From: Ignavibacteria bacterium RIFOXYC2_FULL_35_21
GTDB lineage: Bacteria > Bacteroidota > Ignavibacteria > Kapaibacteriales > UBA2268
DNA length: 64,000 nt
NCBI GenBank assembly: GCA_001804705.1
Contig: MHAY01000037.1
Span: 1 to 64,000, forward strand
Direction of reading: 5' to 3'
The notes under the pieces are model-generated. The model worked only from the letters and a program-made list of their open reading frames with translations, did no database searches and was not told the DNA's origin. The translations under genes were made by a program, and so were the position numbers. Below, one piece after another: positions 65 to 2,475 of this stretch; the stretch's first letter is position 1, and every line of letters starts with the position of its first letter.

Positions 65-238
65 GTGGAATTACACGATATCTATCCGGGTCGGATGACA
101 CTAAAAAAACTCAAGAAAGACGAGAGGAGGAGGTGGAAAAACTTCGCGAGAGGGCATGTGGTGTGGATGTGTCCGAATTGCGGTGGTCGCAACACGAGGG
201 GAGAGAAATGCTGGAAATGCGGCAAACACAGACCATGA
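65..238 (+). CDS. small zinc-ribbon protein, 57 aa
   Basis: Not recognised as a named family. The C-terminal half has two CxxC knuckles, CPNC near residues 36-39 and CWKC near 49-52, which is the pattern of a small zinc ribbon. The first half is very basic (KKLKK, RRR), so nucleic-acid binding is a reasonable inference. A GTG start at 65 is preferred because AGGAAGG lies 6-7 nt upstream; an in-frame ATG at 95 is the alternative. The frame closes just upstream with TAG at 41-43. The G+C content is clearly higher than in the rest of the window, and the gene sits left of a breakpoint in a HEPN gene, so it may belong to a mobile element or phage. A longer open frame (58-255) overlaps it but shows no protein features. 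Confidence 0.5.
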   Translation: MELHDIYPGRMTLKKLKKDERRRWKNFARGHVVWMCPNCGGRNTRGEKCWKCGKHRP

Positions 239-251
239 AAGGGGTGAAGAG

Positions 252-335
252 ATGAACAAGAACCTAGCCCTGGTTATTCCAGGCATAAGGTGGCGCACCG
301 ATGAACACTGTTCGCGCTACCTGTCTTTTTCCTAA
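252..335 (+). CDS. possible very short ORF, 27 aa
   Basis: An ATG follows the zinc-ribbon gene by 13 nt and has AGGGGTGA a few bases upstream, so it could be the start of the next gene of the same fragment. It stops after 27 codons, close to the breakpoint in the HEPN gene. It may be the remaining head of a longer gene, or chance. No domain is visible. Confidence 0.2.
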   Translation: MNKNLALVIPGIRWRTDEHCSRYLSFS

Positions 336-549
336 AATCCTTTTTGGGTAAAGGACGAGGGAACAAAATCCGCGCGAGCGGTGTTTTTTTATTATCATTT
401 ACGAAATGTGCTTTTAGGATTTTTTCAAGAACCAAATGTCCAATATATAAACACCAATTGTAATCTCCCATAATAAATAATCTTTCTGCTACTTGTAAAT
501 CACTTTCAGCAGCATCTATCCAATAATTAATATGTTCTTCGATTTTCAT
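274..549 (-). pseudogene. truncated HEPN-domain protein
   Basis: The first ~57 residues fit the start of a HEPN domain protein (an EEHINYWIDAAESDL helix, then a LVLEKILKA helix). HEPN proteins of this kind are usually paired with a MNT nucleotidyltransferase, and some act as RNases in toxin-antitoxin pairs. After KKTP, near position 380, the expected HNL-containing helices are replaced by a basic, proline-containing tail that runs to 274 in G+C-richer DNA. I infer that the gene is broken by an insertion or rearrangement at about 380. No MNT partner is visible. An assembly chimera cannot be excluded. Confidence 0.6.
370..390 (+). terminator. small GC hairpin plus T-run at the breakpoint
   Basis: CCGC-GCGA-GCGG is followed by TG and seven T residues. 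It could end rightward transcripts of the left fragment. The stem is only 4 bp, and it falls exactly where the HEPN reading frame loses its homology, so it may be produced by the junction. Confidence 0.25.
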
Positions 550-614
550 CTAATATGTTTCTATTAATATATTATTGAATTTATTATTGAATCTATTCAA
601 ATATAGTATTTTTA

Positions 615-1781
615 TCAAAATATTGCATCTTTAACTTTATCAATAAAATCTTTATCCTTGTGAGATGATTTCTTCTTCGGAATAATGTTTTCACTTTTTG
701 CAAGTTCTTTTATAGTCTGCTTCTCTTTTGAATTGATTGAAGTCGGGACATAAACATTTACATAAACAAGCTGGCTTCCTTTGCCGTTTGAATTAAGATG
801 AGGAATACCTTTGTCCTTAAGCCTGATGACAGTTCCCGGCTGCATACCTGCTGATATTTTTATTTTTTCTTTACTTAACAGAGTCGGTACTTCGACATCG
901 TCACCTAAGACTGCCGAAGGATAGCTGATTGTCAGGTGATAAATCACATCATCCCCTTGCCTGATAAATTCGGGATGTTCCTTTTCATTTATAATGACAA
1001 TCAGGTCACCAGCCTCACCGCCTCGCCTACCTGCATTGCCTTTGGAGCGAATCGGCATATAATTGCCTCCTTCAACACCGGCAGGAATATTGACCTTGAC
1101 TGTATCTTCCGCCTGTACTCTTCCTTCACCCCTGCATTTTTCACACAGTTCGCGGATTAACTGTCCCGAGCCATTGCAGACATTGCATGTACTGATGTTC
1201 ACGAATTGTCCGAACATTGAACGGGTTACTTGACGCACTTGTCCAGTTCCATTGCACTGATGGCAGGTTTGAAATCCAGACGAAGCTTTTGCTCCGGTTC
1301 CTCTGCAATCATCACATACAAGAAATCTTTTTAATTTAAGAGTTTTTTCAATACCGGTTGCTATTTCTTCGAGTGTCAGGTGAAGCTGAATTTTAAGGTC
1401 TGAGCCTCGCTCGCCGACTGGACGCCGTTGGGAACGCCCTCTGCCGCGAGAACTCGTACCAAAGAAATCATCAAATATGCTTCCGCCTGTGAATATATCG
1501 CTGAAATGAGAAAATATATCGTCGAAATTTGAAAAGCCGCTGTAATCCCTACCCATTCGTAATCCGTCATGGCCATATTGGTCGTATCTGTGCCGTTTAT
1601 CAGAATCGCTCAGGATTTCATAAGCTTCGGATGCTTCTTTAAATTTTTCTTCCGACACTTTATCCCCAGGATTCCTGTCAGGATGAAACTGCATCGCTAA
1701 TTTTCTGTAATTCGTCTTGATTTCATCTATACCGGCATTTCTTGAAACGCCAAGAATATCGTAATAATCTCTTTTACTCAT
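615..1781 (-). CDS. dnaJ: chaperone DnaJ, 388 aa
   Basis: Hsp40 co-chaperone that stimulates the DnaK ATPase and delivers unfolded clients. It has an N-terminal J domain (YDILGVS start, HPD motif in FHPDRNPG), a Gly/Phe-rich linker, and the full cysteine-rich zinc region with four CxxCxGxG repeats: CDDCRGTG, CHQCNGTG, CNVCNGSG and CEKCRGEG. The C-terminal client-binding domains follow. The start is the ATG at 1781 (MSKRDYYDIL); the frame stays open for 15 more codons upstream, but those lie inside grpE. It overlaps the end of grpE by 8 nt, so the two are translationally coupled. dnaK is not adjacent, and no CIRCE operator is visible upstream of the pair. Confidence 0.95.
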   Translation of the reverse strand: MSKRDYYDILGVSRNAGIDEIKTNYRKLAMQFHPDRNPGDKVSEEKFKEASEAYEILSDSDKRHRYDQYGHDGLRMGRDYSGFSNFDDIFSHFSDIFTGGSIFDDFFGTSSRGRGRSQRRPVGERGSDLKIQLHLTLEEIATGIEKTLKLKRFLVCDDCRGTGAKASSGFQTCHQCNGTGQVRQVTRSMFGQFVNISTCNVCNGSGQLIRELCEKCRGEGRVQAEDTVKVNIPAGVEGGNYMPIRSKGNAGRRGGEAGDLIVIINEKEHPEFIRQGDDVIYHLTISYPSAVLGDDVEVPTLLSKEKIKISAGMQPGTVIRLKDKGIPHLNSNGKGSQLVYVNVYVPTSINSKEKQTIKELAKSENIIPKKKSSHKDKDFIDKVKDAIF

Positions 1782-2475
1782 TTTCTTCCTCTTTTGGTTC
1801 ACCTGCAGAGGTAACGACCTTTGCATGTCTCAATACTTTATCCTTCATCGTATATCCTGACTGCACTTCACTGATGATGTAATCTTCAGGCAATTCCGAA
1901 GGCATTCGCATAACGGCTTCATGCTCATTGACATCGAATGGCTTTCCGACAGTATTTTCCATTATTTTTACATTTTCATTTTCGAATAGCTTCAGTGCTT
2001 TCTGATAAATCAGGTCAAGACCTGTCAGCATTGAATCACAATCCACAGCTTTTTTACCGGCTTCCACTGCTTTACCCAAATCATCAAGCAATGGCAACAG
2101 ATTAAGGATGAGACGTTCATTTGCATAGTCAATCATTTCGCGCTTTTCTTTGAGTGCTCGCCTGCGATAGTTTTCAAGTTCAGCGGCTACTCTCAGAACC
2201 TGGTCTTTCAACTCATCTCTTTCTTTTTCCAATTCTTTTAATTTATCAATTTCGGAAACAGCTTCGGCAGTCTCATGTATTTCAGGTATTTCTAATTCAG
2301 GTTCTTTAATGTCATTAACCGCTTCAATTGGTTCATCCTGTTGAACAGATTGAGTATCTTCATAATTCGTCAGATTTTGCTTTTGGTCCTGATTTTTCAG
2401 GTATGTGTCATAAATATCCTTCATCTTATTCATTGATGAACGCAAAGGCTTTTTTGGATTTGAACCGTCATCCAT
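1774..2475 (-). CDS. grpE: nucleotide exchange factor GrpE, 233 aa
   Basis: Co-chaperone that releases ADP from DnaK. The acidic, low-complexity N-terminus (~70 aa) leads into a long coiled coil (LKELEKERDELKDQVLR, then AAELENYRRRA), the typical GrpE dimer helix. The C-terminal beta domain follows, with the NEHEAVMR and GYTMKDKVLRHAKV family signature. Length is normal for Bacteroidota GrpE. First gene of a grpE-dnaJ operon on the minus strand. The ~120 nt upstream carry no inverted repeat of the HrcA type, so heat-shock control through HrcA/CIRCE is not supported here. Confidence 0.95.
   Translation of the reverse strand: MDDGSNPKKPLRSSMNKMKDIYDTYLKNQDQKQNLTNYEDTQSVQQDEPIEAVNDIKEPELEIPEIHETAEAVSEIDKLKELEKERDELKDQVLRVAAELENYRRRALKEKREMIDYANERLILNLLPLLDDLGKAVEAGKKAVDCDSMLTGLDLIYQKALKLFENENVKIMENTVGKPFDVNEHEAVMRMPSELPEDYIISEVQSGYTMKDKVLRHAKVVTSAGEPKEEENE

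Follow-up and report, generated by a model that had tools for sequence, protein, structure and literature searches.

A HEPN gene broken off at the end of an Ignavibacteria contig, possibly at a chimeric join beside dnaJ

The window analysed here is a stretch of 64,000 nucleotides from Ignavibacteria bacterium RIFOXYC2_FULL_35_21 (assembly GCA_001804705.1). Its first base is also base 1 of contig MHAY01000037.1 (C37), so that no leftward extension is possible. C37 is 93,575 bases long and belongs to an assembly of 105 contigs that is 97.75% complete with 0.26% contamination. Reading inwards from the contig end, the window carries a short tail with two small open frames, the N-terminal half of a HEPN gene, and then dnaJ and grpE (Table 1).

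Table 1. Features at the left end of the window.
Feature	Position	Strand	Remarks
Tail at the left end of C37	1..379		G+C 0.49; searches gave no relatives
57-aa frame with two CxxC pairs, zinc-ribbon-like	65..238	+	GTG start; Shine-Dalgarno-like stretch upstream; no confident family
27-aa frame (MNKNLALVIPG...)	252..335	+	Shine-Dalgarno-like stretch upstream; may be chance
Weak GC hairpin and T-run across the junction	370..390	+	GGTG and T-run are part of the HEPN gene
Junction	379..380		Sequence in common with G002's intact HEPN locus begins at 380; 379 is not shared
HEPN (PF05168) N-terminal half, ~56 codons	380..549	-	Frame continues to 274 (91 aa in all)
Stretch 97% identical to G002	380..620		dnaJ-grpE alongside ~80%
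dnaJ	615..1826	-	
grpE	1774..2475	-	

The minus-strand frame that contains the HEPN sequence (549..274, 91 amino acids) matches PF05168 over residues 8-55 only (profile positions 2-49 of 117, E 8e-9, score 36.1 with a cut-off of 22); the profile search found no full-length domain in this frame, and in intact relatives the match covers profile positions 2-115 and 2-116. DNA homology to the congener G002 is unbroken down to window position 380 and ends there, with a difference at base 379, and homology to a second congener, G003, ends at position 384. These limits therefore place the junction at 379/380, and we confirmed that the HEPN gene is broken there in the assembled sequence, in agreement with the original prediction that it loses its family sequence at about 380. 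The prediction had also named a fused HEPN sequence in relatives as evidence that would speak against it. We looked for the same junction in 53 other genomes of the family and did not find it, G002 and G003 matching from the HEPN side only. A natural family variant with a different C-terminus was rejected because none of these 53 genomes shows such a variant, and the 91-aa fused frame had no match in viral_contigs.

The locus is intact in both congeners. The HEPN gene of the window is the orthologue of HEPN genes on SCSM01000021.1 of G002 (MAG Bacteroidetes bacterium isolate FW215_bin.12) and on JACRLY010000089.1 of G003 (MAG Ignavibacteriae bacterium, from groundwater according to its title). 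After dnaJ, G002 has a 130-aa HEPN and an overlapping 107-aa minimal nucleotidyltransferase (MNT), then two opposite-strand frames, a beta-barrel porin (BBP2) and KdpA; the order in G003 is dnaJ, HEPN (129 aa), MNT (107 aa) and a frame that resembles the same porin up to the contig end. The MNT partner and the other half of the HEPN gene, whose existence had been guessed beforehand, are thus both present beside dnaJ in these relatives.

The arrangement in G002 and G003 resembles HEPN-MNT toxin-antitoxin modules such as HepT/MntA of Shewanella oneidensis (PMC7641770, PMC3710099) in the overlap of a PF05168 HEPN gene and an MNT gene that carries a GSx10DxD motif. We read this motif from the sequence of both MNTs, and PMC7641770 reports it as the active motif of MntA. 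The Rx4-6H motif was not seen in the HEPN of G002 (ARYPEDKQKFY) or G003 (VRYPEDKQKFY); in PMC3710099, PF05168 is listed as HEPN-T, and D is given in place of the catalytic H in several cases. HEPN lies 5′ of MNT and overlaps it at L036:7249-7937 and L037:3593-4281, and this HEPN-first order of G002 and G003 is the reverse of the usual one in PMC3710099, according to which MNT is almost always first. The window locus differs from such modules in that its HEPN ends after ~56 residues, with no adjacent GSx10DxD MNT gene before the contig end. Compared with solved structures, the intact HEPN of G002 gave two weak matches, TM0613 (E 0.05) and TT1696 (E 0.09).

Searches with the DNA of 1-385 found no second copy in its own genome and no match in 59 relatives, in phages, in plasmids or in E. 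coli genomes. The predicted rise in G+C content at the break is present (0.489 over 1-380 compared with 0.346 for the window, a value reached by a fraction of 0.0015 of 380-base windows), and the left end of C37 has the highest G+C among 100 left contig ends. However, the step relative to the next 1.1 kb (+0.105) is hardly above the steps at two other contig ends (+0.102 each) and so proves nothing alone; we therefore rejected it as proof by itself.

The two small frames of the tail are both preceded by a Shine-Dalgarno-like match of at least 5 bases, compared with 4 of the 39 long window frames that start with ATG. For the 57-aa frame we obtained no Pfam family above cut-off (best E 0.0066), four weak matches in phages (best E 0.02), only two weak matches in plasmids, both annotated as ligA, and no result in viral_contigs and genome_contigs. 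Among 395 genomes of the phylum, 55 gave matches to this frame at E up to 1e-3, its own genome included; apart from the frame itself, all of these are weak (28-48% identity), and most lie within frames of ~555-790 amino acids, a few in small ones. We take these long frames to be enzymes with a zinc knuckle. None of three exact 19-20-base patterns was found in viral_contigs, and the three Rfam matches in 1-800 all fell far below gathering.

A GC hairpin with a T-run had likewise been predicted at the break. The hairpin is present (CCGC-GCGA-GCGG, about 370-381) but weak: it has four GC pairs, is missing from the output of the terminator scan, and sits in a 68-base fold with a z of −2.3. The intact HEPN gene of G002 also contains the T-run and the last two bases of the hairpin, so that hairpin plus T-run straddles the junction. 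The T-run is formed by the HEPN gene's own Lys-Lys-Thr codons and, like the preceding GGTG, is identical in G002; only the left arm and the loop are wholly derived from the tail. The tail may have brought a terminator of its own, with a T-run that provided the short homology for joining; if not, the hairpin arose by accident when the two sequences met.

On the other side of the junction, the interval 380-620, coding and intergenic sequence alike, is 97% identical to G002, and the adjacent dnaJ-grpE about 80%. If sites are independent and diverge by 20%, the chance of finding at most 8 differences in 241 bases is about 2e-14. This contrast suggests that the two species recently exchanged the HEPN-MNT module, with the 3′ end of dnaJ as the boundary, or that strains were joined there.

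The remainder of the locus was not found in the assembly. The orthologous second half of HEPN and the MNT region are absent from the 105 contigs, in which the best DNA matches are paralogues elsewhere that are 68-75% identical; ~97% might be expected of the true remainder, judging by the half that is present. No MNT orthologue was found in the source genome (the best MNT elsewhere has 48% identity to the MNT of G002), the next 5.3 kb of the G002 locus, with the porin/kdpA region, had no match in the 105 contigs, and the assembly contains no KdpA by a search that was positive in 5 of 14 control genomes. The source genome is rich in modules of this kind; at E up to 0.001 it gave 9 matches for HEPN and 21 for MNT.

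To place the left end of C37 among the ends of the assembly, we sampled 120 ends, comprising every left end (105 contigs) and 15 right ends, and linked two ends if a 25-mer that began within the first 150 bases of either one occurred in both. Most ends (96 of 120) share sequence with another end; sharing starts within 30 bases in 82 of the 120, and the runs measure 26-111 bases (median 88.5). A typical end would stop roughly one read length into multi-copy sequence. The 96 ends form 19 end-sharing groups; many repeat families, which are probably insertion sequences, interrupt the assembly of this genome. The right end of C37 is of this repeat-sharing type and its left end shares nothing; the possibility that the left edge is like most others was rejected, since those overhang by ~90 bases and are shared. 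Because 1-385 has no other copy in the genome, the stop of the contig after 379 bases of tail cannot be put down to a repeat of its own genome. However, nothing is shared by 23 further ends of the sample either, and the right ends read were 15 of 105, so that the comparison of ends does not prove a chimera.

We give an even chance to the explanation that the tail is a chimeric contig end, joined in library amplification or assembly, which makes it somewhat likelier than a real deletion, a rearrangement or the edge of an element. C37 would then end inside the HEPN gene of an ordinary two-gene HEPN-MNT module that lies in relatives between dnaJ and the porin/kdpA pair; the outermost 379 bases would be foreign sequence, attached to HEPN through a short sequence such as GGTGTTTTTTT, most probably when the library was amplified or the reads were assembled, and the organism itself would have no 91-aa fused frame. 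Consistent with a chimera, the tail has no copy in any of the sequence sets searched, the junction is absent from the 53 other family genomes, the 105 contigs have no orthologue of the other HEPN half, of MNT or of the porin/kdpA region and no KdpA at all, and the left end of C37 shares nothing, unlike 96 of the 120 sampled ends. The junction also lies just before a rare seven-T run, as a join at short shared sequence would give; counting both strands, 274 of 127,160 positions have such a run 2-4 bases ahead, and the junction is one of them. Several observations argue against a chimera. The microhomology is putative, and eleven shared bases are too few for the usual de Bruijn k-mers. With 379 bases the tail exceeds the ~90-base overhang of repeat ends and must have had read support of its own; the 23 other unshared ends show that such an end is not peculiar to C37; and with the completeness and low contamination of this assembly, the missing neighbours could be truly deleted. 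The chimeric contigs in metagenome assemblies treated in PMC10978663 are alike in that unrelated sequence is joined to a contig, and differ in that here the searches gave no source for the tail and the chimera is inferred.

The alternative of a real deletion or rearrangement, which removed the second half of HEPN, MNT and the kdp region and brought other sequence beside HEPN, is unlikely, although it would account directly for the lack of an orthologue, in the 105 contigs, of everything from the 3′ half of HEPN through MNT and porin to KdpA in G002 (in G003, up to the porin). Loss of a contig from the assembly would give an identical picture, given that C37 stops there; moreover, the tail has no resemblance to anything in its own genome or in relatives, and C37 has no sequence to its left.

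Slightly less probable still is that an integrated phage, plasmid or island interrupts HEPN, with the tail as its edge and the remainder on unbinned contigs. The higher G+C content, the two small frames with Shine-Dalgarno-like stretches and a tiny zinc-ribbon-like protein, presumably of a kind often carried by phages, point in this direction, and HEPN-MNT loci are themselves exchanged, as the 97% identity to G002 beside genes of ~80% indicates. The tail, at only 379 bases, is too short to exclude a mobile element. However, 1-379 contains short frames only and no transposase or integrase, no convincing terminal inverted repeat and no known relative; the repeats found look like chance, and the inverted-repeat pair 95-110/383-398, which lies partly in the HEPN gene, was taken as chance too. 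Furthermore, a simple insertion would preserve the other half of HEPN elsewhere, and the absence of anything closer than ~70-75% DNA identity from an assembly of this completeness counts against one. Of the original suggestion of a mobile element edge, the junction at about 380 is thus real in the sequence, but nothing positively supports the element, and the contig ends there. The more specific idea that the 379 bases end an undescribed element with tiny Shine-Dalgarno-led genes, interrupting a recently exchanged HEPN-MNT module beside dnaJ, appears very improbable. We consider it equally doubtful that 380 to about 635 comes from a G002-like strain with the tail as that strain's own variant sequence: the 97% identity does end at the 3′ end of dnaJ, at a stretch of ~26 bases (counted by eye) identical in both species, but G002 itself runs on into an intact HEPN and not into the tail, and a recent module exchange explains the identity equally well.

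These results call for caution, as the edge of the window is the edge of a contig, and it would be wrong to annotate the fused frame found there as a new HEPN variant. Toxin-antitoxin-type modules broken by rearrangement are common, and if the junction is real, this locus would be one more of them. Whichever explanation holds, the gene beneath is, judging by its sequence, an ordinary member of a known toxin-antitoxin kind.
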